Below, in pieces: positions 18,031 to 30,167 of a stretch of 40,440 nucleotides of DNA (positions are counted from its first letter, which is position 1; each line of letters opens with the position of its first letter). The position numbers were made by a program, and so were the translations under genes. The notes beneath the pieces are model-generated. The model worked only from the letters and a program-made list of their open reading frames with translations, was not told the origin of the DNA and searched no databases. Source of the DNA: a virus; the IMG/VR virus record IMGVR_UViG_3300028569_000072, positions 1 through 40,440 of that record; one strand, written 5' to 3'.

Positions 18031-18066
18031 TAACCGTCTGCGGCGAGCATGCCGGGGTTCTAAAAA

Positions 18067-18263
18067 TTTGGCAACACATTTGGCAACAACGCCCGCCGCC
18101 AAGCGTGACGAATCGCCCATTTTGTCGCCACCCTCTCCCAAGGAGAGCGGTGGCGGACAGAGAGGGATTCGAACCCTCGGTACTAATGCCCTGAGTCTGC
18201 TCTACCCAGTTATTTTGTACTTTCCGGGGCCGCAACGGGCGATTTGGCAACGGATTTGGCAAC
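18067..18263. other. attP: Phage attachment site (attP) with symmetrical arm repeats
   Basis: Two pairs of the direct repeat TTTGGCAAC, each pair spaced by 12 bp from start to start, lie at 18067-18087 and at 18243-18263. Between them is a tRNA-Ser 3' end (18151-18182) and a CTCTCC/GGAGAG hairpin (18133-18147). Paired arm-type sites on both sides of a tRNA-derived core are the known structure of tyrosine-integrase attP sites. Both arms being present on one molecule means the site is undivided. Confidence 0.75.
18151..18182 (-). tRNA. 3' fragment of a tRNA-Ser (attachment core, not a complete tRNA)
   Basis: On the minus strand the segment reads CCGAGGGTTCGAATCCCTCT then CTGTCCGCCA: T-arm and acceptor 3' strand with the encoded CCA, characteristic of serine tRNAs. 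No 5' acceptor strand, D-arm or anticodon arm is found upstream, so it cannot be a working tRNA. It would restore the host tRNA gene on integration. Confidence 0.7.
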
Positions 18264-18368: not shown

Positions 18369-18854
18369 TCAAGCGGGGACAATTGGGCTTGGGAAGGAGC
18401 AAAAAAGGTTGGCTTCGCTGGCGCGACGGCGGGTGAGGCCGCGAAGCACCCGGCCGCCGGCGCGGTTCCATTTGCGAAATTCGGGGACTGCTTCCAGGTA
18501 GGCGCGGGCGTTCACGCGCTGCAGTAGGGTGGAGCGCTCGAGGTTCCCGAGGCCCAGGTTGAACGCAAAGCTGACCAGGGCGCCAAACATGTTGTCGGTG
18601 ATCTCGGCGCGCGGACGAGGCAGAAGTTTCGATTCGACTCCTTGAGCAAATTTGGTTAGGTCGCTCTTGAGCAAAACAGCCGCCTCCTCGGGTGTGATGC
18701 TCCGGCCTTTTTTGACGGTGCCGTCGCGATGCTCGATGCCAGTGTGACCGTAGCCGATGGTCCAGACGCCGGCGGGGCAAAGGTAGGCCTCAAGGAAAAG
18801 TCCTTCGAAGGACTTTACCAGATCGACCGTGGCGGAGTTGACGATGCGGCTCAT
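18369..18854 (-). CDS. Endolysin, T4-lysozyme/GH24 type
   Basis: A 161-residue GH24 muramidase that cuts peptidoglycan for host lysis. The catalytic Glu is in LVKSFEGLFLEAYLCPAGVW and is followed by TIGYGHTG. In this enzyme the position often occupied by Asp is Cys (AYLCPAGVW), a variant common in prophage lysozymes. FAFNLGLGNLERSTLLQRVN and GLTRRRASEANLF complete the fold. There is no signal peptide or SAR segment, so release needs a holin, probably the gene at 19376. TGACA, which includes the stop codon of the upstream gene, lies 14 nt before the ATG. Confidence 0.9.
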   Translation of the reverse strand: MSRIVNSATVDLVKSFEGLFLEAYLCPAGVWTIGYGHTGIEHRDGTVKKGRSITPEEAAVLLKSDLTKFAQGVESKLLPRPRAEITDNMFGALVSFAFNLGLGNLERSTLLQRVNARAYLEAVPEFRKWNRAGGRVLRGLTRRRASEANLFCSFPSPIVPA

Positions 18855-18870
18855 GCGCTGGCCGGTGATG

Positions 18871-19305
18871 TCAGAGCTTCCAGCGGGGACCGAACCATTT
18901 GACCGCGGCTGCCATCACCGCTGCTTGACCGGGGCGCACGCCGTCCTCGCGAAGCCGCCGGGCGAAGTGGGCGTGCGTGTCGCGAGAGCTGATTTTGGCG
19001 GGCAGGCTGCCGCTGAATTGCCGGCGCAGCCAGACGGAGCCTCCGGCGCCGATCTCGCAAAGGAAATCATGCTCCAAAGCCGCGGCGATGTGCAGACCAA
19101 AAGCGCTGTAGCCGCTGGCGCCGAAGATGCGCTGCAGGATGGCTGGGACGCTGGCGCCATCAAACTGGTAGCCGGCGGGAATCAGGTATTCACGCTGGCT
19201 GCCATCGGCCAGGTGGACGACGAAGCTCCAGTTGTGTTCGAGGGCGAACAAAGGTCCGGGCGACCAAGGCCAGAGGCCGAAGCCAAGGCCAGAGGCCGAA
19301 GCCAA
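18871..19305 (-). CDS. DUF1353 protein, 5' end thrown out of frame by a tandem repeat
   Basis: The body is a DUF1353 protein: NWSFVVHLADG, IPAGYQFDGASVPAILQRIF, then GLHIAAALEHDFLCEIG. The family is found near phage lysis genes and is uncharacterised. The expected start is the ATG at 19360: it has TGACA 13 nt before it, in common with its neighbours, and follows the previous stop by 15 bp. From there the frame reads MTFAVRPHPQIAVLRNP, then enters a 19-bp repeat and continues in the wrong frame. Removing one 19-bp copy restores a continuous protein (GLGFGLWPW leading into SPGPLFALEHNW). As sequenced, only a TTG at 19305 opens the correct frame. Could be a phase switch, a recent mutation or an assembly error. 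Confidence 0.75.
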   Translation of the reverse strand: MASASGLGFGLWPWSPGPLFALEHNWSFVVHLADGSQREYLIPAGYQFDGASVPAILQRIFGASGYSAFGLHIAAALEHDFLCEIGAGGSVWLRRQFSGSLPAKISSRDTHAHFARRLREDGVRPGQAAVMAAAVKWFGPRWKL

Positions 19306-19311
19306 GGCCAG
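19264..19311. repeat. 19-bp tandem repeat, 2.5 copies, inside the DUF1353 gene
   Basis: Two exact 19-bp units (plus strand starts CCAAGGCCAGAGGCCGAAG at 19264 and 19283) and a 10-bp partial third copy. As 19 is not a multiple of three, each gain or loss of one unit changes the reading frame. Confidence 0.95.
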
Positions 19312-19375
19312 GGTTGCGAAGGACGGCGATTTGCGGGTGAGGGCGGACAGCGAAAGTCATGCCCGGCCGGACATG

Positions 19376-19597
19376 TCACTGACGCTTTTTGGCGTTCTTT
19401 TCGCGGCGCATGCGCGATGCGATCGACGCGATCGTGATCAGCCCGACGGCGATTCCGACGAGCAGGGAGCAGACGCGAAGCCAGGCTTCGAGCTGCTCCA
19501 TGAACGAGGCGGCCGTGGTGGCGGCAAGAGTCAACGTGCCAAGAGCGGCGCGTCCGGCGTCGTCCAGGTGCATCACGATTTGCTGCTCACGGCTCAT
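19376..19597 (-). CDS. Candidate holin, 73 aa
   Basis: A 73-residue protein with an amphipathic N-terminal region, one membrane segment (residues about 41-60, RVCSLLVGIAVGLITIASIA) and a very basic C-terminus (RMRREKNAKKRQ). Size, topology and position two genes before the endolysin fit a single-span holin, which makes the membrane hole through which endolysin leaves. There is no direct family signature. TTGACA lies 13 nt before the ATG and there is no Shine-Dalgarno. Confidence 0.6.
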   Translation of the reverse strand: MSREQQIVMHLDDAGRAALGTLTLAATTAASFMEQLEAWLRVCSLLVGIAVGLITIASIASRMRREKNAKKRQ

Positions 19598-19623
19598 GCC
19601 GCGGAGACGCTGTCAAGGCAGGG

Positions 19624-21357
19624 TCAGGGGGCCACGGCCTGGCTGACCACGATGAAGCTGCCTGCCTTTACGGTGACCGAGTTGCCGCCGCCGGTTTCGG
19701 CGCGAAACCGCGGGAAAATGTAGCCCGCGGTTGATCCGTTGTGAAGCACGCCGGAAATGAAAACGTAAGAGCCTGCCGTGGTGCCGGTGGCCACGGTGGT
19801 CGTGCCGTCATAGGTCGTGATCGCTTCGCTGCTATTCACGCCAGCACTGCCGGCGGAGGTGTGCGTTTCGATGCGATATAAAAACGCAGTCGGGCTGACC
19901 GGCGCAGACACAGACATGGTTAGGCCTTCGGTCGAGACGCTGGTGACGTACTGGGCGAGGATTTCGAATTTGTAGATTTTGTTGGCTTCGACTGGGATGC
20001 GCCAACCGCTGGCGTCCACGCTGGCGAATGAGGTCGAAGAGCTGGGGCTGTCGGCGGAAAGTCGGCTGTAATACGATGCGCCAGTGATGTCCGCGGTGAC
20101 GGCAAGGGTGCCGCTCTTGTCCGGCCAGCTAAGCGCGCGATCAGCCGTGGCCGTGCCACTCACGGTCGTGCGCGTACCCGCAAAGCCAAACTGGATGGAG
20201 CCGGTGCCGGTGAGGTCGATGCTGCCGCCACCAGCGCTGAGGTTGATGCTGCCGCCGGCTTCGCCATTCGCGGAGTCGCTGCCGCCGCCGCCGCTAAGGT
20301 TGATGCTGCCACCCTGGCCGCCGGTGTAGCCGGTGGACGTGTCGCTGTCGAAACCGCCGGTTCCGCCTGTCAGGTTGATGCTGCCGGCCGCGCCCCCGAT
20401 GCCGCTGTCGAGCGCAGGTCCGCCACTGAGGTTGATGCTGCCGCCGTTGCCTGGCGTGGTGCCGAGATCGGCGCTGCCAGAGTCGAGCTTTAGCGAGCCG
20501 CCCGTGGCGGTGCCAATGTCCTGACCGCTGATCCAGCCGATGCCTTGGGGATCATAGATAGCTGATACCTCATCGACGATGCCACCGACGAAGTCACCGG
20601 ACGTGTCCGTGATCTTGCCATCGCCATTGACCGTCAAAAAATCGCCAGTCTGGAGGTCGGTGAAAACAACGTCACTCAAGCCTGACATCGCGAGAGTCTG
20701 CCAAGTCGAATCACCACGCAGGAATTTCGTGGTGATGCTGGACCCGCTGCCGAGCTGAGCGGCAGGCACGGTGCCAGTCGTGATGTTGTCCCCGCTCATG
20801 CCAGATCCCACTTTGGATCCCGTCAGGCTGCCGTCCGCTAGGTCGGTCAAGTCCGCGTCCAGGGGCTGATACGTGCTGGCCGCGGTGGCCGTGGTCAGGT
20901 AGTCGCTGATCGTGCCGCTCTGCGTGGCCAGCGTGCCGAGGCCGGCGGCCGTGCGAAGCGCGGCGGCGTCCGCAAGCGTGAGCAGATCGCGGCCAAAAGA
21001 ACTCGTTGTTAGACCGGCGATGCTCGTCAGATCCGAGTCCAGCGGCTGAAAGCCTAGGCTGGCGCGCGTGGCGTTGATCCAGTCCCCGGAGCCGCTGCTG
21101 TAGGTCAGGACGTCCAGGTTTGCCAGCGAAGTCAGGGCAACGTCATCAAGGCTCGAGAAGCTGCCGCCCGAGCCGCCGGTGACCATGGTGAGATTGCCGC
21201 TGCCATCCAGGCCGAAGGACTTCGAGTTTTGCGGCGTGAGCCAAAGTTCCTCCAGCGTTCCGTTGGCTCGCAATTTCTCGAACCGAAATTGTCCGGTGGT
21301 CTGGGCTATGGACACGCTGGACAGGGCCAGCGCCGACAGGGCGAGAAGGATGCGCAT
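19624..21357 (-). CDS. Tail fibre-like protein with signal peptide and GGSINLSGG repeats, 577 aa
   Basis: A 577-residue protein. Residues 1-19 are a typical Sec signal peptide (MRILLALSALALSSVSIAQ), which is unexpected for a virion protein. Residues 60-210 contain fibre-type repeats (FQPLDSDLTSIAGL, YQPLDADLTDLADG, FLRGDSTWQTL), as in trimeric tail fibres. Residues 300-390 hold at least five GGSINLSGG-like repeats suggestive of a beta-helix. The last 150 residues form a distinct domain (ASYYSRLSADSPSSSTSFAS). It is the last gene before lysis, the usual receptor-binding position. CTGACA lies 14 nt before the ATG; the GTG at 21360 is an alternative start. Confidence 0.75.
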   Translation of the reverse strand: MRILLALSALALSSVSIAQTTGQFRFEKLRANGTLEELWLTPQNSKSFGLDGSGNLTMVTGGSGGSFSSLDDVALTSLANLDVLTYSSGSGDWINATRASLGFQPLDSDLTSIAGLTTSSFGRDLLTLADAAALRTAAGLGTLATQSGTISDYLTTATAASTYQPLDADLTDLADGSLTGSKVGSGMSGDNITTGTVPAAQLGSGSSITTKFLRGDSTWQTLAMSGLSDVVFTDLQTGDFLTVNGDGKITDTSGDFVGGIVDEVSAIYDPQGIGWISGQDIGTATGGSLKLDSGSADLGTTPGNGGSINLSGGPALDSGIGGAAGSINLTGGTGGFDSDTSTGYTGGQGGSINLSGGGGSDSANGEAGGSINLSAGGGSIDLTGTGSIQFGFAGTRTTVSGTATADRALSWPDKSGTLAVTADITGASYYSRLSADSPSSSTSFASVDASGWRIPVEANKIYKFEILAQYVTSVSTEGLTMSVSAPVSPTAFLYRIETHTSAGSAGVNSSEAITTYDGTTTVATGTTAGSYVFISGVLHNGSTAGYIFPRFRAETGGGNSVTVKAGSFIVVSQAVAP

Positions 21358-21378
21358 CACAGCGCGCCCGGTGTCAGA

Positions 21379-21969
21379 TTAGGAGCTGACGCGGATGTAC
21401 TTGCCGCCGGGCAGGTACAGCTTCACGCCGTCGTAAGCGAAGAGGTTCTCAAGGAGCTGCGTCTTTTCGTCGTCGCTTACATCCTGCTCCTCATCGATCC
21501 GGACGCAGCGCGCGCGCAACCAGTCTTCGCTGGCGGTTAGGGCGGCGTCAGGCGCATCGTCATCATCAGGGCGAGACCAAGCGTTCTCGAAATGGATCGG
21601 GAAGCTGCTGGCGTAACTGACGCCGTCCACCGTCCAGCGGATTTCGGCGGTGAGAATCACAAAAGGTTCGGAGCCGAGAGCCGCGCGCAGTTCCACGCTG
21701 TCGGCGGAGTTCCACACGAATTCGTACAGAGCGTCTTCGCCCTCTTCGCCGTTGTGGGTCCACGCGGTGTCGAGCAACAGGGCGTCACCAGCAGGGGTGG
21801 ATGTGGTTTTGATGGTGCAGCGGCCGGTTGCTCCGTCAGCCAGTGCGACAATCTCGACGTCCGTCTTGAAAGCGCACTGAATGACCAGCTTGGACAGCAG
21901 CTTGCCGCGCAGGGAAAACTCCGGCTTTGCCTCTTGCGTGTCCGTCTTGATGACAACTAGGCCAGTCAT
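21379..21969 (-). CDS. Baseplate/tail accessory protein, paralogue of the next fibre's N-terminal domain, 196 aa
   Basis: A 196-residue protein. Residues 20-150 match the N-terminal domain of the 563-aa protein upstream (here AGDALLLDTAWTHNGEEGED and LRAALGSEPFVILTAEIRWT; there GTALLLDADWTLTGDGASAI and LRAAIAELVHLDCSAQITWE). The fold, strands alternating with short loops ending in a TVDG or EVDG hairpin, resembles baseplate upper-protein N-terminal domains. The C-terminus ends in LYLPGGKYIRV, as in fibre-attachment modules. The ATG overlaps the upstream stop. Attachment of a fibre to the tail tip is a reasonable inference. Confidence 0.6.
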   Translation of the reverse strand: MTGLVVIKTDTQEAKPEFSLRGKLLSKLVIQCAFKTDVEIVALADGATGRCTIKTTSTPAGDALLLDTAWTHNGEEGEDALYEFVWNSADSVELRAALGSEPFVILTAEIRWTVDGVSYASSFPIHFENAWSRPDDDDAPDAALTASEDWLRARCVRIDEEQDVSDDEKTQLLENLFAYDGVKLYLPGGKYIRVSS

Positions 21970-23657
21970 GGGAATGGGGGTTCCGCCGTGTTCGAGTTCA
22001 CCGCGCTACCGTAACTGTTCACGGTATTCGCGCTTTCGGTGTGGACGATGCTGAGCCGCATTTCCAGCAGGTCGCAGGTGACCTCACCTGTGACGATGGA
22101 GCCGAGCAACCAGACCTCGAACAGCGCGCCGGCGGCGCCGTTGGAGCCAGCGCCGGTGGCCACGCCGGCGGAGCCAGCGCTTTGTTCCACGTTGCCGCGC
22201 ACTTCGCAGCGTGTCAGCGAAATGCCGCCGCAGTCGCCGCCGTCGCCACCGTCCACGGCGCCGCTCACTCCATCACCGCCAGAGCCGCCAGCGCTCAAGA
22301 TGGAGTCACACACCACGCCGCGCATGCGCAGCGCGCCGGAATCGCCGCCATCGCCAGCCTGGCGAGTCGAGCCAGTGGAGGTGACGTTGCCACCCGCGCC
22401 GCCGGCGAGCACGATGTCACCCAGGTTGATCGAGCCATCGGATTCGATCCACACGTCGAGGCCATCCGTGCCAAGGTTACCGTTTGCGTCAGTCGTAGCG
22501 GCCGGAGTGTCGGGCGGGTCGAAGGTGATGCCGTCCAGAAAGCTGATGCCGTTGCCGCGGCCAAAAAACGACATGATGCGGCCGGTGAGATTCGCATCGC
22601 CTGGGCAGGTGATGCTGCCGTGATCGCCCGCCCCGAAAATGAAGATGCCACAGGCTTCGGCGGAGCCGACCCAGGCGTCGAAAGCAGCCTGCGCGGTCTC
22701 GTAGGGCAGGTGCGCTCGACCCGGCAGCGCCGTGGCATCGTCCCCGGTGTCCAAGTCCACGAAGTAGCAAAATTTGTTATACAGCGCCGAGGCGTTGGCT
22801 TGCCAGCCGCGGTTGCCGGAGGCATCCGTCCCGTAGATTTTATTCAGGCCAGGGGTCGCCGTGTCGCCCACCAGAGAAAGCGTGCGGTTCGCGCTGAGGT
22901 CGCCGCCGCCCTGCAGACTGTGCTGCGTGGCCACCTGGCGCGAAGCCGCGATCGCGTTTGATGAGACGTAGCTTACCAGCGCCGCATTGTCCACCGGGGC
23001 GCCGCTGCTGATCTGGCTCCACGAATGCGTGTGACTGGAGGGCGCAAACGTGGAGGGCACGCCGGTCAGCGATGACCAAGAAACGGTGGGAGAAGCGCCT
23101 TCTTCGCCGTTGATCGTGATCGTCTTCGCCGATTCATCAATGGTCAGAGTGACGTTGCTGCCCTGCACCAGGCGCGCTTTTAGCCAGGTCCAAGCGTTGG
23201 ACAGAGTGGTTGTTGGCAGGCCATCGTCAGGCTGCTCGTAGCTGTTCAGTACGCAGAGATCAAGGTGGAAGGATTTCCGCGGATTGTCCTCGCCATCCAC
23301 CTCCCAGGTGATTTGCGCCGAGCAATCCAGATGGACTAATTCGGCTATTGCCGCGCGCAATTCTTCCGAGTCCGCGAGGAGGCTGAAAGTATAGATCGCG
23401 GAAGCGCCGTCGCCGGTCAGAGTCCAGTCCGCATCCAAGAGTAGCGCGGTGCCTTCGGGCACGCCTTTTTGCTTGATGGTCAGGCGGCCGGTCGTGCCAG
23501 CGGCAAGCTCAATGGTCGAGTGCGAATCGTCGATGAATTGGACCTGCAAATTTAGCAGCGTGCCTAACAAGGCATATAACATCGGCGGCGTGGCGTCCAC
23601 GTTGCTTTTGCCAACGCGGCCAGTGCCAGAGTGAATGCAGATGCCTTGTGCGTCCAT
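21966..23657 (-). CDS. Tail fibre / baseplate protein, 563 aa
   Basis: A 563-residue fibre. Residues 25-150 form the domain shared with the smaller protein downstream. A coiled or shaft segment with fibre signatures follows: SWSSLTGVPSTFAPSSHTHS, where the H-T-H motif is known from metal-binding fibre shafts, and QHSLQGGGDLSANRTLSLVG. The C-terminal 280 residues are Gly/Asp-rich and resemble a right-handed beta-helix (IVLAGGAGGNVTSTGST, SILSAGGSGGDGVSGAVDGG), perhaps a polysaccharide-binding or -degrading domain. GTGACA lies 13 nt before the ATG. Confidence 0.7.
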   Translation of the reverse strand: MDAQGICIHSGTGRVGKSNVDATPPMLYALLGTLLNLQVQFIDDSHSTIELAAGTTGRLTIKQKGVPEGTALLLDADWTLTGDGASAIYTFSLLADSEELRAAIAELVHLDCSAQITWEVDGEDNPRKSFHLDLCVLNSYEQPDDGLPTTTLSNAWTWLKARLVQGSNVTLTIDESAKTITINGEEGASPTVSWSSLTGVPSTFAPSSHTHSWSQISSGAPVDNAALVSYVSSNAIAASRQVATQHSLQGGGDLSANRTLSLVGDTATPGLNKIYGTDASGNRGWQANASALYNKFCYFVDLDTGDDATALPGRAHLPYETAQAAFDAWVGSAEACGIFIFGAGDHGSITCPGDANLTGRIMSFFGRGNGISFLDGITFDPPDTPAATTDANGNLGTDGLDVWIESDGSINLGDIVLAGGAGGNVTSTGSTRQAGDGGDSGALRMRGVVCDSILSAGGSGGDGVSGAVDGGDGGDCGGISLTRCEVRGNVEQSAGSAGVATGAGSNGAAGALFEVWLLGSIVTGEVTCDLLEMRLSIVHTESANTVNSYGSAVNSNTAEPPFP

Positions 23658-23684
23658 GCCTTGCCAGAGGTGTCACGCGGCAGC

Positions 23685-24629
23685 CTAGACATCCAGCTCG
23701 ACCCAGGATACCGAGGCACCGGCGCGCGCGATGATGGCCGAGCCGCTGACTTCGGACGCGAAGCGCCCGATCACAGTCCCGGTCGAGGCCGCTTTCAGCA
23801 TGCCCTCAATGATGGCCAGGCCGCCCGTGGTCAGGCTCGTCGCGCCCGCCGCTGCCGGTGCGTTGTATGCGGCAAGGTGATTTTGGACCTGAGTCAGATC
23901 AGTAAGTGGCCACGAGCTGCGATAATGCAGACGGTAGGCCGCTGGACCGTTGATCGAAAAACGCGCGCCCGTGGTGGTGGCAGCCGCGTCGTATGGGATG
24001 AGGAAGCGAAAACGGTATGCCTTTTCCGCCTCCACATCGAAGTACAACCCGGTGAGATCGGCCAGCGTGTTCGCTGTGCCGTTGTTGTTGGTGACGTTGT
24101 TCAGCATCACGCGGATCTGCTCTTGCATGAGCAGAGCGGCGCCGGTCTCCTCAAGGGACGGTGTGCCAGGCGCGACTTCGACGCCGCGCCACACGTTGTT
24201 ATGTAGGACGAACGGCACCGTCTGCGAGCGATCTTCCCAAGGCACGCTGGAACTGGGCCGCATGGCGAACTCGGCCATGAGGGTGAGCTGGCCGCTGTCC
24301 ATGTTTTGCAGCGCCGGATACTGGTTATCCGTCTTGAGCAGCTCGTTCAGCCGGTTCGTCGCGAAGTTGATGCGGCCGCTGTAGCAGCTCCGGGTTGTAT
24401 CGACCGTGAAGCTTTCAGCCAGCGCGCAGACTTGGTCCGTGTCGTAAACGCCCCAAGGTTTGACGATAAAGCGAAACTGGGTCAGCGTGGAGGGCGTGTA
24501 AAAAACGCTGTCTCGCAAAAGTCGCACCTGGATGCGGGAGCCTTCGCCGCGCTTGGCCTCCAGCTTGTCCAATTCGGCAAAGTGGCCGTTGACGAGGAGC
24601 TTGCGGTCGGTGTCGAAAATCAGTTCCAT
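23685..24629 (-). CDS. Putative tail-tip protein, 314 aa
   Basis: A 314-residue beta-rich protein of unknown family, starting at the ATG 24629, one base after the upstream stop. It begins MELIFDTDRKLLVNGHFAEL; the middle has LYFDVEAEKAYRFRFLIPYD and the C-terminal part has AIIEGMLKAASTGTVIGRFA. The phrase EAEKAYRFRF is shared in style with VEANKIYKFEI in the fibre at 19624, suggesting a common small jelly-roll-like carbohydrate domain. Position between tail and fibre genes suggests a baseplate component. Confidence 0.55.
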   Translation of the reverse strand: MELIFDTDRKLLVNGHFAELDKLEAKRGEGSRIQVRLLRDSVFYTPSTLTQFRFIVKPWGVYDTDQVCALAESFTVDTTRSCYSGRINFATNRLNELLKTDNQYPALQNMDSGQLTLMAEFAMRPSSSVPWEDRSQTVPFVLHNNVWRGVEVAPGTPSLEETGAALLMQEQIRVMLNNVTNNNGTANTLADLTGLYFDVEAEKAYRFRFLIPYDAAATTTGARFSINGPAAYRLHYRSSWPLTDLTQVQNHLAAYNAPAAAGATSLTTGGLAIIEGMLKAASTGTVIGRFASEVSGSAIIARAGASVSWVELDV

Positions 24630-24630
24630 G

Positions 24631-25017
24631 CTATGAGGGCAGATTGTCATCGGCGCGGCGGCGCCGCTCAAGCGCGGCCTGGACCCAGGCGTCGAAAGAC
24701 CGCAGCTCCTCGATGCTGAGCGGGCGCTGCCCTTTGGGCGGCGTGTAAGGGTCCTTCGCCGTATGTGCCGCGAGCGGCGCGCGCACGTAATCGACAAACC
24801 CAGGGAACTGACGGAGAGACACAAGGCCGGAAGCCTTCGGGAACTGGTAGGGTTCCACGCGGTCTTTAGTGCCCGAGCGCTCCGGGTCGGTGACTCCTTC
24901 AGCCTGCCAGCGCAGGCCGAGCTGCGGGAAGAGCCATGTCGCGTAGCTTCGGAGCGTGCGCCAGGAAACCAACACGCAGTTGTTAGGCCACTCAAATTTC
25001 TGCTTGTGACTCGTCAT
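24631..25017 (-). CDS. Tail-tip accessory protein, 128 aa
   Basis: A 128-residue protein without known domains; Trp- and Pro-rich at the N-terminus (FEWPNNCVLVSWRTLRSYAT) and helical at the end (IEELRSFDAWVQAALERRRR). It overlaps the upstream gene by 4 bp (ATGA), so it is co-translated with the tail-tip genes. Function inferred only from position. Confidence 0.5.
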   Translation of the reverse strand: MTSHKQKFEWPNNCVLVSWRTLRSYATWLFPQLGLRWQAEGVTDPERSGTKDRVEPYQFPKASGLVSLRQFPGFVDYVRAPLAAHTAKDPYTPPKGQRPLSIEELRSFDAWVQAALERRRRADDNLPS

Positions 25018-25892
25018 CGTGGCGTGGCGACAGGAACAAATTCCGTCGTGATCGAAATCAGCCAGACTTCCAAGTCAAGAAGCCGCTCGGCTGTTATTCC
25101 CTTGAGCGACCAGCCCCAAGGCCAGTTGAAGGTGAACCCTTCAGGGGAAAACCAAGGCACCGAAAATATATCCTTTACGTTAGGCGCGTTTTCCGGGGTC
25201 AAATGCCCGGGCAGTTGGTCGGTTGGCGGAGGATCGGTGGACAGAAAGGTATCAGTCACCACGACGCGCGAAGTGTCGATGGCGGAATAACGTGGACTGC
25301 CCCAGCCGGTGAACTCGCCGTACTCGTTGACAAACGGGAAAGGTTCTCCGTCCACAATGCTATTGGTCAGCACATAGGGCACGCTGCTACTCACTACTTG
25401 ATTGCCCACCGTGATCCGCCGCTTGCGGGCGCGGGAATTGAGTATGCCTTTGTACCTCGGAGTGACTTGCCAGGTCAAATCATCGTACTGTTCTTTCTCC
25501 GCCTCAACGCACCAGAGCGTGGACTGGGTAGGATGCGCCGCGCCGCGCACGAAGTCGGCCGGGGCGCGGGTGAGCCAGGTTTCCTGCCCGCCGTCCCAGC
25601 CTTCCTCCCCTTCGGACAGGGAACTGGAAATGCGCTTGCTTGAGCGGACGCCGGCGAAGCCGCTGGCCTGGATGCGGTGCTCCCATGCGCCCCCGGACTG
25701 TCTTGTCTCACATTCGGTTATACGCATGTGCGGGCGCCGAGGCGGAGCGCCGCCATTGGCGAACTCGTGCTCGTCTTGGCTCAGCCACACCTGCGTGGTC
25801 TGGTCCAGACCGCGAGCGCGGGTGACCAGGCGCTCCGGCTCGATCTCCATGCGGTCGAGGCCGTGAATGATGATTTCAGCGGGGGCGGTCAT
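25014..25892 (-). CDS. Putative distal tail protein, 292 aa
   Basis: A 292-residue protein immediately after the tape measure, where siphoviruses encode a distal tail or minor tail protein. It is beta-rich and has many Trp and Arg (LVTRARGLDQTTQVWLSQDE, NVKDIFSVPWFSPEGFTFNW). No family was recognised with certainty. Its ATG overlaps the tape-measure stop (TGATG) and is preceded by AAAGGAG, a good Shine-Dalgarno, in contrast with most late genes. Confidence 0.55.
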   Translation of the reverse strand: MTAPAEIIIHGLDRMEIEPERLVTRARGLDQTTQVWLSQDEHEFANGGAPPRRPHMRITECETRQSGGAWEHRIQASGFAGVRSSKRISSSLSEGEEGWDGGQETWLTRAPADFVRGAAHPTQSTLWCVEAEKEQYDDLTWQVTPRYKGILNSRARKRRITVGNQVVSSSVPYVLTNSIVDGEPFPFVNEYGEFTGWGSPRYSAIDTSRVVVTDTFLSTDPPPTDQLPGHLTPENAPNVKDIFSVPWFSPEGFTFNWPWGWSLKGITAERLLDLEVWLISITTEFVPVATPR

Positions 25893-27526
25893 CAGGCTCC
25901 TTTCACCGTCTGCAGGATGTCAGTCACGAGCTGGATGAGCTGCTGCGCGGTCGGGTTTGAGGCCTGATCGGGCGGCTTTTCCGGGGCGTTGGCGGCCGGG
26001 GCTTGGCTGACTTTGTCAGCGCCCGGCAAAAGCGAGCGCGCGCCGGTGCGACCTGGCTGGTTTGCCTCAAGCTCTTTCAGCCCGGTGAAGCCGCGGAGGA
26101 AAGCCGGATCTTCGTTCATTCGGCGGCCCTGGCGGCCGTTGAATTCGTTCAGACCGCCAAAGCTGGCATCTCGGCCACTCTGGGCGCGATCACGCGCCTC
26201 CTGGGAGCGTTGCGCCGCGCGCGCGCGGGCGTCCACGGCATCGCCGCGATCCTCGCGGCTGAACCCGCGAATGCGGCCTTCCTTGCCTGCATTCTTTTCG
26301 ATCTTCTCTTCGAGGGCGGCTTTTTCCTTGGCCATGGCCAAGGCGGCGGCCTGGCTGAGGCCGGTCTCGCGCTCGATGCGCAAAGCATCCTCCGCGATCT
26401 TCTTCGCGCGCTCAAGAGCGGCCGCTTTCTTCTCTTGCCCGGCGGCTTGAAGCTGCAGAATCTCCAGCTCGTATTGGGCGGCGGCCAGCGCGTAATCCTG
26501 CTGTTGCTGGGCGGCCTGGGCCTTGGCGTCCACGGCGGAGCCTTTGTCCACCTCGGTGGCCGCGCTCGAGTTTTTCTTGGCTAGCTCCTTCTGAGCCGTG
26601 CGCCCGATCTGCCGGTTGAACAGGCTGTTCCCGAATTCGGCGCGCCCCGAAAGAGCATCCAACGACGCACCCAGTATGTCGAGCGAGAAGACGCCGGCGT
26701 CTCCGAGCCTACTGAACAGGCCGCCTAAATCCTTGGTTAGCTGGACGTTTTCCTCCAGGATGACCGAGAGGGCTTTCGCGCCGTCAACGACATCGTCAAA
26801 CAGGCCGGCGGTGAGGTTTCCAGCGGCTTTGTCGAGCGCCGAAGAAAGGGTCGAAAATGCGACGCCGGCGGTGTCTCCCGCCTCGCCCAGAGCGCCGACA
26901 CGCTTAACAAGAAATTCGTACAGATTACCGGCTTGTTTCGCGCGCTCGATATCGGCGTTCTTGATCAGCAACAGCCGAGCCAGGGCGGAATCACTGGTGA
27001 TGTTCCCGGAGACGATGGACTGTAGCTCTTGGACGAGCTGCTCCGCCGGGAGGTTGGCATTGGCCACGGCGTTAGCCAGGCGGCCGACGAGATCCACGTT
27101 TTGTTCGATGCTGAGTCCGGCGGACTGACTCGCGGCGAAGGTGGCAAGGAAACCTTCAGTCAGGCCTTGCAGCGTGGCCGCGCTGCGCGGCTCCATGGCA
27201 ACGATAGCCTCCATGGCTTTGCTGGCTTCACGCTTGGCGGCTTCCCCGCTGAGGCCCTGGAACTTGCGAATGACGTTCGCAATGGCGACCTCACTGTCTT
27301 TCATCGACTGATTGAACTCGAAGCCGCGCTTGCCGAGCTGCGTGAGCTGGCTGATGCCGGCACTCAGGCCAGCTCCGAGAACGAATCCTCCAACCAGGCT
27401 GCCGACATCGATCTTGCGCAGGGCGCTCTCCATCGCGCCGGCCGCGCGGCGCACGCGGTTTTCGGCCTCCGCGGCGCCAGCCCGGAGGCGGCTGTTGTCC
27501 CAGCCCAGTTCTACGGATGCGGCCAT
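25892..27526 (-). CDS. Tail tape-measure protein, 544 aa
   Basis: A 544-residue, almost wholly helical protein with heptad-rich regions and a hydrophobic segment near residues 44-62 (LVGGFVLGAGLSAGISQLTQ), typical of tape-measure proteins that fix tail length and later help DNA entry. The second half has long charged coiled coils (LQAAGQEKKAAALERAKKIA, AMAKEKAALEEKIEKNAGKE). It starts 5 bp after the end of the frameshifted chaperone frame, the standard order. With the empirical 0.15 nm per residue, a tail of roughly 80 nm would be expected. Confidence 0.85.
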   Translation of the reverse strand: MAASVELGWDNSRLRAGAAEAENRVRRAAGAMESALRKIDVGSLVGGFVLGAGLSAGISQLTQLGKRGFEFNQSMKDSEVAIANVIRKFQGLSGEAAKREASKAMEAIVAMEPRSAATLQGLTEGFLATFAASQSAGLSIEQNVDLVGRLANAVANANLPAEQLVQELQSIVSGNITSDSALARLLLIKNADIERAKQAGNLYEFLVKRVGALGEAGDTAGVAFSTLSSALDKAAGNLTAGLFDDVVDGAKALSVILEENVQLTKDLGGLFSRLGDAGVFSLDILGASLDALSGRAEFGNSLFNRQIGRTAQKELAKKNSSAATEVDKGSAVDAKAQAAQQQQDYALAAAQYELEILQLQAAGQEKKAAALERAKKIAEDALRIERETGLSQAAALAMAKEKAALEEKIEKNAGKEGRIRGFSREDRGDAVDARARAAQRSQEARDRAQSGRDASFGGLNEFNGRQGRRMNEDPAFLRGFTGLKELEANQPGRTGARSLLPGADKVSQAPAANAPEKPPDQASNPTAQQLIQLVTDILQTVKGA

Positions 27527-27530
27527 GGTG

Positions 27531-27767
27531 CTACGGCTTGCGAGTCAAGTTTCTGAGCCAGGCGCACAGCCGGTCGAAGGCCCGGCTTTCCCGGTTCTGT
27601 TGGGCTTGCGGCCAGCGCATGTCGCCGCCGTGCTCGATCTGGTGGACGTGGACGTAACTCCAGCCGCGTTCCTGCGGGAGCTGATACCGAATGCAATCTT
27701 CGGTTAGGCCGGGACAGGCCCGCGCTACCGTGCTCACGTATTGAGCCGCGGCGGCGGGCCAGGCTAG
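27531..27767 (-). CDS. Tail assembly chaperone, -1 frame extension (gpT-like)
   Basis: Seventy-eight residues read after a -1 shift at the slippery site. They continue seamlessly (LAWPAAAAQYVSTVARACPG then LTEDCIRYQLPQERGWSYVH). The frame has no ATG; the only internal start is a GTG at 27737. Read as a fusion with the upstream gene it gives a 273-residue protein like lambda gpGT, in which the G part binds the tape measure and the T part recruits tail-tube subunits. It ends 5 bp before the tape-measure gene. Confidence 0.8.
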   Translation of the reverse strand, partial: LAWPAAAAQYVSTVARACPGLTEDCIRYQLPQERGWSYVHVHQIEHGGDMRWPQAQQNRESRAFDRLCAWLRNLTRKP

Positions 27768-28351
27768 TTTTTTGAGCGCGCGGAGTCATGGCGTTCGCCC
27801 GGTTTGGCCACGGCGCGGGTTTCATGCGCGGAACTGTATATCTCGTAAAAGACCTGCACGGCCAAAGCGCCCTCTTCGCGGCGCACATTGGCGGCGGACC
27901 ATTCTCGGATCTTCAGCTCGAGCAGGTAAGCGCGATCAAATGCGGACAGGCGATGCCAGCCGGCTTCCTCGCCATCGTAACGCATGGATGGAATGTTGAG
28001 CCACTCCACGGGTTCGTGAGCGAGGAACCAAAGGACGCGCAGCGCATCGTTGAGCATGAGCTGGGGCTTGCCGATGATTTCGGCCAAAGGCACCTCGTTC
28101 AGCAGCTCGCGGTGACGCAGCCAGTCGCCTTCGCGGTCGATGGCGAAAGGGGCAAGTTGCTTCTCTTTCCAGTGCCACAGCTTGCAGCCCCAGGCCTGGT
28201 TGACCTCGCTCTCGCGGCGACCGAGGTCGATTTCATCCTGAGGGTCATCCTTCAGGATCGGCGCGACGGCTTGCGTGGAGGTGCCGGCTGATTCGGCGCC
28301 GATATCTTCGGTGATGCTTGGCGGCTCGGGAAGCTCGTAGTTTGGTTCCAT
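27764..28351 (-). CDS. Tail assembly chaperone (gpG-like), 195 aa
   Basis: A 195-residue acidic-helical protein located between tail-tube-region genes and the tape measure, the place of gpG. It contains LSAFDRAYLLELKIREWSAA and MLNDALRVLWFLAHEPVEWL. It ends with the slippery heptamer A AAA AAC directly followed by TAG, so the normal product stops there and a fraction of ribosomes should continue in the -1 frame. No enzymatic motif is present, as expected for a chaperone. Confidence 0.8.
   Translation of the reverse strand: MEPNYELPEPPSITEDIGAESAGTSTQAVAPILKDDPQDEIDLGRRESEVNQAWGCKLWHWKEKQLAPFAIDREGDWLRHRELLNEVPLAEIIGKPQLMLNDALRVLWFLAHEPVEWLNIPSMRYDGEEAGWHRLSAFDRAYLLELKIREWSAANVRREEGALAVQVFYEIYSSAHETRAVAKPGERHDSARSKN
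27767..27773 (-). other. -1 ribosomal frameshift site A AAA AAC, abutting a TAG stop
   Basis: The minus strand reads TCA AAA AAC TAG; A AAA AAC is a canonical -1 slippery heptamer. A small hairpin, GCTCA/TGAGC with loop ATACG, lies about 22 nt downstream and may stimulate slippage. Confidence 0.8.
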
Positions 28352-28360
28352 GGGCGAAAA

Positions 28361-29176
28361 TCAGATGATGCGCAGATGCTGGCGGACGCGATCCAGCGTG
28401 CGCGAGCTGGCATCCTCCGGGACGAGTGACGCGCGGCCCGTGCCCTCGGCCCGGATCATGACCATGCGCCGTTGGCCGTTGATGAAATCCAAAATGGCAT
28501 CGCGATTCTTGAGGCCCTGCATCATCCACAGCAGCGGATGCTGCTCATGTAGGGAGCCAGCGCGGAGGGCAAGCGCCAGATCGGACGGGACAATGGCGGG
28601 CACGTCCGGCGCGAGTTGATAAGCCAGCATGGAAAAAAGAAAGGCGTGATTTTTCCCCTCCGCATCGATGCGGGTCAACGGGACTCCGAGCACCGACATG
28701 CAGGCTGCCAGTTTGAGATCGCGCGTGCGCCAGATGGCTTGCGCCGCTTTGATCGTCTGGGGTTCCTCCCCTGGCACGAAGCGGAAGCGCTGGACCCCGG
28801 AGACGCGCGCCAGGCGATATCTCATGCCCGATCGGCAGGCTTCCTGGAGGCAGTCAGCCGCGGCGCAGGCGCGCAGCACGTCCAAGGCGGGATGATGAGG
28901 ATCCGACTTTTGGAGTTCGCCCTTGCGGATCAGGCCGAGGATCGACTGCGTGCGAAAATTCGGAGTCGGATCGGGAGCGCCTTCGACGATCTTTCCGCCG
29001 ATGGCCTCGCTAGGCACGGACTCCAGGCCTAACAGAATGGTCTTCCAACCGCGCCCGGTTTTCGCGTCGATGGTCTGGTCAACCTGGATCGGAATGCCGA
29101 GCACCGAACACGCCGCGGCGATGTCCGGGCTGGTCGTGCGGGCCCAGGATGCCAGTTGCGGCTGCGTGCTCTTCAT
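28361..29176 (-). CDS. Tail-region protein with an internal repeat, 271 aa
   Basis: A 271-residue helical protein of unknown function. Two segments resemble one another: residues 19-50 (DIAAACSVLGIPIQVDQTID, then GWKTILLGL) and residues 150-180 (DLKLAACMSVLGVPLTRIDA, then FLFSMLAYQL), suggesting a duplicated domain. It lies between the putative tube protein and the assembly chaperone. No signal peptide. It may be an additional tail chaperone or minor structural protein. Confidence 0.5.
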   Translation of the reverse strand: MKSTQPQLASWARTTSPDIAAACSVLGIPIQVDQTIDAKTGRGWKTILLGLESVPSEAIGGKIVEGAPDPTPNFRTQSILGLIRKGELQKSDPHHPALDVLRACAAADCLQEACRSGMRYRLARVSGVQRFRFVPGEEPQTIKAAQAIWRTRDLKLAACMSVLGVPLTRIDAEGKNHAFLFSMLAYQLAPDVPAIVPSDLALALRAGSLHEQHPLLWMMQGLKNRDAILDFINGQRRMVMIRAEGTGRASLVPEDASSRTLDRVRQHLRII

Positions 29177-29198
29177 GCTGGTCGGCGCCGCCTTGGAA

Positions 29199-29597
29199 TT
29201 AGGCGGCGGGGATCACGAATGGCGCGTGCATGACGGTGAAGCTAGTCTTCACGTCTTCTTCGAGGGACCAGGAATCTTCCGGGTCTTCAAAGATCATGCT
29301 GCCTTGGGCAGGATCCATGCCGCGGCGTTCGGCGGCAAAATTGGTGAGCGCCGTCACGCGCGTGCCTGGGTGGGCGACGGCCAAGCTGGTCGAGCCAGTG
29401 ACGAAAGCCGTGAAGCTCATAACCAGCATCGGGTTGAAATATTCGATCCGCCGCGTGTTGCCGAAGTTGTTCTTCCGCTCTCGCTTCTCCCGGGTGTACT
29501 TGGCCTTGAATTCGGACACGTCCAGGCTGGTTTCATCCTGGATATCGTGCGTGGAATCGGCGGTGCCGTGGATGTTTTCAGCAGTGGGAGCGGCCAT
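29199..29597 (-). CDS. Putative tail tube protein, 132 aa
   Basis: A 132-residue protein with a mixed beta content (RRIEYFNPMLVMSFTAFVTG, SLAVAHPGTRVTALTNFAA) encoded two genes before the assembly chaperone, about where siphoviruses encode the major tail tube protein. It is short for that role and no family signature is visible, so the call rests on position. GCCTAAC lies 11 nt before the ATG; there is no Shine-Dalgarno and no TGACA box. Confidence 0.45.
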   Translation of the reverse strand: MAAPTAENIHGTADSTHDIQDETSLDVSEFKAKYTREKRERKNNFGNTRRIEYFNPMLVMSFTAFVTGSTSLAVAHPGTRVTALTNFAAERRGMDPAQGSMIFEDPEDSWSLEEDVKTSFTVMHAPFVIPAA

Positions 29598-29631
29598 GAT
29601 AAAATTTAGTTAGGCTGTTCTTGCGGGCCGG

Positions 29632-30138
29632 TTATTGAGCGACTCCGGACGCGAGGCCGGGGGCGCGGAAATAGATAACCGTGGTGGTTTTCACCACGCC
29701 CAGGACAAGCAGGTATTCACCCGTGCTGAGATCAGCGGCAGGGGCAACTCCGCCGGCTGTGGGAGACGCAATCAAGATCGTGTTTGCCGTCTGGCTGCCG
29801 CCGATGGTCAGAGCGGGGTCGAACTCGACGTAGTTCACGCGCTGGCCGGAGCTGGCGCTGTTGATGGCCATGCCGGCGCAGGTGCGGATCAGGGCCGTCG
29901 CGCTGTCGCAGTCAGTGAGCTTGGCTTTGCCGATGCCGCGCGCGTCGAGGTCCGCGGTGTCGAGGTAAACGAGCTGGCCCGCCGCGATGGTTGCTCCGGC
30001 GGTCGCCTCCTTGATGAGGGCCGAGGAAGACGGCACCACGTTTGCGGCCGTGATGGTGAGGTCAGTCGCAAGCGCTGGCGCGCATGCGAACAGAGCGAGG
30101 GCGGCACAGCCGGTCAGCAGGGAAAGGAGGCGCTTCAT
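29632..30138 (-). CDS. Secreted DUF2190-like structural protein, 168 aa
   Basis: The mature part (from residue 24) matches the style of DUF2190/decoration-type phage proteins: TITAANVVPSSSALIKEATA, GQLVYLDTADLDARGIGKAK, SASSGQRVNYVEFDPALTIG and AADLSTGEYLLVLGVVKTTT. The first 23 residues are a complete Sec signal peptide (MKRLLSLLTGCAALALFACA, then PALA before TDL), highly unusual for a capsid or tail decoration protein. TTGACA lies 14 nt before the ATG, supporting this start. It could cover the head or tail; its place among tail genes favours the tail. Confidence 0.7.
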   Translation of the reverse strand: MKRLLSLLTGCAALALFACAPALATDLTITAANVVPSSSALIKEATAGATIAAGQLVYLDTADLDARGIGKAKLTDCDSATALIRTCAGMAINSASSGQRVNYVEFDPALTIGGSQTANTILIASPTAGGVAPAADLSTGEYLLVLGVVKTTTVIYFRAPGLASGVAQ

Positions 30139-30167
30139 CGCGAGGGCGCGAGTGTCAATTTTGCCGA

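Follow-up and report, generated by a model that had tools for sequence, protein, structure and literature searches.

A probable recent 19-bp tandem duplication in the 5' part of a phage lysis-region DUF1353 gene

Main finding

Examination of an uncultivated virus record revealed what is likely a recent, spontaneous duplication of 19 bp in the 5' part of a DUF1353 (phospholipase-A2-like) gene. The gene belongs to the lysis region of a phage that is temperate and whose host is probably a member of the Verrucomicrobiota. It lies on the minus strand of the window, by which we mean the entire 40,440-bp record. Comparison with homologues shows that the gene ancestrally started at ATG 19360 and that the additional 19 bp are a derived duplication that breaks the reading frame. 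Overall, we regard this as a real but ordinary mutation, one case of a common mutation type. The features discussed below are as follows.

18369-18854, minus strand: phage lysozyme (PF00959, Pfam match), lying downstream of DUF1353, whose stop codon overlaps the lysozyme TGACA box
18871-19305, minus strand: DUF1353 body frame of 144 aa, with a TTG start and its own GLGFGLWPW copy; matches profile positions 15-150
19190-19360, minus strand: ATG-start frame, 56 aa to the stop; conserved N-terminus ...LRNPGLGFGLWPW, then off frame; matches positions 5-27 of the relatives' HMM
19264-19311, minus strand: 19-bp tandem repeat, 2.53 perfect copies (48 bp), from Tandem Repeats Finder and self-match
19374-19378, minus strand: TGACA box, 13 nt ahead of ATG 19360, read from the sequence; the TGA within it ends the upstream gene
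19376-19597, minus strand: upstream 73-aa protein, a holin candidate by position only, with no family match

A perfect repeat that separates two reading frames

Tandem Repeats Finder placed the repeat at the top of its 27 arrays (period 19, 2.5 copies, 100% match, score 96), and no other short tandem repeat in the record comes close to it in strength. The exact self-match run at an offset of 19 extends for 29 bp, against 15 for the runner-up in the window. In simulations under an order-3 Markov model (n=100) the longest exact run was 14, so far below 29 bp that we conclude that the repeat did not arise by chance. Both measures bear out the coordinates of a 2.5-copy repeat described in an earlier, sequence-only reading. 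On the minus strand, three CTGGCCTTGG blocks are spaced 19 bp apart, with first bases at 19311, 19292 and 19273, in the order ...CGCAACC CTGGCCTTGG CTTCGGCCT CTGGCCTTGG CTTCGGCCT CTGGCCTTGG TCGCCC.... An exact search of viral contigs with the repeat core gave no match, nor did a megablast of the region against phages; the corresponding search against plasmids returned nothing beyond short Azospirillum matches (47-94 bp), all falling in the query's far part.

The size of the unit is indivisible by three, and the repeat falls within the first 100 nt past ATG 19360. For this reason translation initiated at this ATG runs off frame: the distance to the TTG of the body frame (19360-19305) is 55, or 3x18+1, and subtraction of one unit leaves 36. 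The earlier reading was thus correct, in both arithmetic and coordinates, that ATG 19360 is out of frame and that one 19-bp copy fewer would restore the DUF1353 frame. From the ATG the translation is MTFAVRPHPQIAVLRNPGLGFGLWPW before it goes out of frame, and the body frame, which reads GLGFGLWPWSPGPLF..., stays open for approximately 122 codons past the repeat. There is no ATG in the body frame between 18871 and 19305; the sole start ahead of the domain is the TTG within the repeat, and this TTG exists in the body frame only through the duplication.

Homologues carry the motif once, in a single frame

A homologue search, for which the window was aligned to its first relative to make the query, recovered 26 viral loci together with one genome locus, a Prosthecobacter MAG. 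A GFGLWPW-type motif (GFGLWPW or a close variant) occurs exactly once, within one continuous ATG-started frame, in 23 of 23 motif-bearing loci (L002 and L006-L027). The ATG stands roughly 12-30 codons ahead of the motif in these loci, in the same frame, and in most of them the motif is preceded by (I/L/V)(R/K)DA-like residues. A shorter N-terminus that lacks the motif is found in another three loci (L028, L030 and L031). Together with the layout of the window described next, the single occurrence in one ATG-started frame leads us to consider ATG 19360 ancestral.

A profile built from the relatives alone matched the window in two pieces, one in the ATG frame (positions 5-27; 16 bits, part of which comes from the duplicated motif itself) and one in the body frame (positions 15-150; 148 bits). 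The two pieces overlap by the duplicated motif, of which each frame carries its own copy, and two overlapping pieces in two frames are the pattern that an out-of-frame tandem duplication gives. The in-frame state with one copy, which previously followed from arithmetic alone, is therefore now backed by homologues, and the simplest history is a single 19-bp tandem duplication in an intact gene. That the copies are identical argues that the duplication is recent. Identity to the window protein is only 39-48% in the closest relatives, so the recent copy-number history is invisible in them. Counting copies in relatives, as had been proposed, thus supported single-copy ancestry (one copy in all 23, each a distant relative) and gave no mixture of one and two copies.

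Programmed ribosomal frameshifting could in principle link the ATG frame to the body frame, the two overlapping by more than 160 nt. We consider this highly improbable: the overlap contains no slippery heptamer of the form X XXY YYZ, and a single frame is found in every relative. The possibility of an artefact deserves more weight, though it too seems rather improbable to us. If the second copy were introduced by assembly or sequencing of the metagenomic contig, the real phage would carry an undamaged gene with a single copy; nothing else interrupts the body frame, and with a single, uncultivated virus record of this phage an assembly error or a minor variant is possible. Against such an artefact, an unsystematic look around the locus met no other broken frames, and short-read assemblers collapse a short tandem repeat more often than they invent a unit. 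We continue to favor a genuine duplication.

Translation starts and the TGACA box

The TGACA box that had been noted at ATG 19360 is real. TGACA is present 11-16 nt ahead of 8 of the 43 listed starts, where 0.2 would be expected (P about 2e-11), but at only 3 of 470 other minus-strand ATGs. Of these three, the ATGs at 24629 and 37929 are plausible gene starts (314 and 96 aa), and the remaining one directly follows the GTG at 21360. The box is possibly a late-gene start or transcription signal. We note that starts with a TGACA box span 18854-37929 on the minus strand, in the structural and lysis half of the genome, with none between 0.5 and 18 kb. In the pooled relatives an excess of TGACA at that spacing is weak at most (32 in the 12-17 bin, 13-30 elsewhere).

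These data bear on whether the gene is still expressed from TTG 19305, in which case the duplication would merely replace N-terminal residues and be nearly neutral, a reading that is compatible with a real duplication. The TTG is in frame and inside the repeat, the protein that it opens keeps the whole conserved motif and the domain, and the predicted structure is confident from about residue 20. However, the TTG has neither a TGACA box nor a purine-rich stretch upstream, and the upstream gene ends where handover to ATG 19360 would be expected, like the adjacent junction between DUF1353 and the lysozyme gene. We judge nearly neutral expression from the TTG to be unlikely, though this start could give a low-level product without only the N-terminal residues that precede the motif.

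With the duplication in place, ribosomes starting at the ancestral ATG would stop at 19190, after 56 codons, and full-length DUF1353 would presumably be lost or reduced in this genome through loss of expression. The stop codon of DUF1353 shares bases with the lysozyme gene's TGACA box (start at 18854), so early termination in DUF1353 might have an effect on lysozyme expression too.

A probable origin in a short direct repeat

The one-copy gene would encode ...NPGLGFGLWPW..., with CTGGCCTTGG present twice, 19 bp apart, as a 10-bp direct repeat arising from the PGLG and LWPW codons. Slipped-strand mispairing between these two copies would add exactly one 19-bp unit, and slippage in the reverse direction could remove it again. 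The duplication was therefore probably seeded by this direct repeat. The window contains 23 other direct-repeat pairs of at least 10 bp at offsets of 10-60, and because 10-bp pairs are so common by chance we see no indication that the locus was selected for instability. Single-strand structure was considered as a cause of slippage and rejected, since the structure of the repeat as single-stranded DNA is unremarkable (z 0.45).

In 168 kb of the relatives' loci there were eight other exact tandem runs of at least 15 bp. Their periods (18, 39, 45, 48 and 57) are all divisible by three, as expected if selection removes frame-breaking runs. Long exact repeats of this kind, with periods of 18-57 that are all divisible by three, lie downstream of the DUF1353 gene at about 5560-6010 in L010, L015, L025 and L027.

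Comparison with reversible duplications

The duplication has the form of that in the pneumococcal capsule gene cap3A: it is an exact tandem duplication within the ORF, breaks the frame, and is absent from the ancestral gene. Duplications in cap3A, and in cap8E and tts (Waite et al. 2001 and 2003, as cited in PMC4022640 and PMC4243769), are described in the citing accounts as inactivating the gene and as open to precise loss. Those accounts give reversibility and frequency as measured in pneumococcus, whereas we have one phage record and its sequence. Microhomology-mediated duplication in fission yeast ssp1 is similar in that short direct repeats flank a frame-disrupting, reversible duplication in a coding region (PMC13207564); that system is eukaryotic and its reversion has been shown, whereas slippage in the phage is our reading of the likely cause. 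A 5' coding-region repeat with a unit indivisible by three also recalls simple-sequence-repeat phase variation (PMC11868660), but those tracts are hypermutable and shown to be reversible; in the phage a 19-bp unit stands in 2.5 copies, and its distant relatives gave no sign of polymorphism.

It had been suggested that the repeat serves as a possible on/off switch. On this reading, the 19-bp unit would be gained and lost by slippage at high frequency, turning DUF1353 on and off within a phage or prophage population. The unit is not a multiple of three, the one-copy state would be in frame, and reversible duplication of capsule genes is, in the same pneumococcal accounts, an accepted cause of phase variation (PMC4022640, PMC4243769). 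However, phase variation requires high-frequency, reversible change, and phase-variable simple repeats are normally hypermutable tracts for which reversibility has been demonstrated (PMC11868660). A second copy is found in none of the 23 motif-bearing loci, all of them distant, and the single-strand structure of the repeat is ordinary. The repeat tract of the one-copy state, a 10-bp pair, is within the length expected by chance (simulated maxima 10-14), with 23 similar pairs elsewhere in the window. With no copy-number variation among relatives and a seed of chance size, the suggestion is not supported; the switch is unproven and unlikely, and we give high-frequency switching very little credence. 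We are, if anything, still more skeptical that a temperate phage uses the 19-bp unit to switch a phospholipase-like gene of its lysis region and so obtains mixed lysis behavior in its population.

Our literature searches found no description of phase variation in a DUF1353 gene. If both forms did occur in a population, this would be a phase-variable gene of a phage lysis region, undescribed in the literature that we examined. The case also carries a caution, that a perfect repeat whose contraction restores a frame can mimic a switch while relatives reveal a derived slip.

The DUF1353 protein and its neighborhood

The body frame matched DUF1353 (PF07087) with 45.8 bits, above the gathering score of 22.5. 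The function of this family had been given as unknown, which is out of date: a 2024 report identified the member TtaP as a phospholipase A2, with key residues H70, D71 and D85 (PMC11525133). The window protein belongs to the same Pfam family and shares the conserved His-Asp pair (H79-D80 in the 144-aa frame), which is invariant among 23 DUF1353 proteins (alignment A3). It differs from TtaP at the position of the second catalytic Asp, where the window protein, its clade, L003 and L005 have a His (H111 in the window) and the phage members L032-L034 keep the Asp. TtaP itself is outside the alignment, and we placed D85 by the published H70-D85 spacing (15 residues in ungapped members), which is exact in L003, L033 and L034. 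Because a His occupies the position of a catalytic Asp, phospholipase activity of the window protein is uncertain. Across loci L002-L031, an invariant His in place of the second catalytic Asp marks a clade of DUF1353 proteins. A family linked to phospholipase A2 thus includes a lysis-cassette clade in which a catalytic Asp has become His, and the consequence of this change is directly testable.

The predicted structure has a mean pLDDT of 81 and matches viral DUF1353 models, with named DUF1353 proteins among the top structural matches to viral models. A profile search of solved structures gave no match. Foldseek against the PDB gave no significant match, and no phospholipase was among the matches listed, a result that excludes nothing.

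Cell-wall hydrolases are encoded directly downstream in several relatives: an amidase in L015, and CHAP or peptidoglycan-binding proteins in L014, L018 and L027 (the matches in L014 and L027 being below the Pfam cut-off). These genes, together with the lysozyme of the window, make a role for the DUF1353 gene in host lysis likely from its genomic context. The PHROG label of "tail assembly chaperone" was not adopted, as the gene adjoins lysis genes here and in several relatives. A search with the upstream 73-aa protein found no relatives.

On the minus strand at 18050-18260, close to where the integrase gene has its 5' end, two pairs of GTTGCCAAAT repeats flank a sequence (GAGGGTTCGAATCCCTCTCTGTCCGCCA) that resembles a tRNA 3' end. 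ARAGORN found no complete tRNA there; the layout is as expected of a putative attP site with integrase arm sites. Finally, the DUF1353 frames at 2932-3627 of L007 and 2926-3615 of L009 have a C-terminal extension with a hydrophobic stretch and a Cys (LVFPSC and LVSSFLVSC, respectively), which is reminiscent of a lipoprotein signal that may be fused or overlapping in frame.
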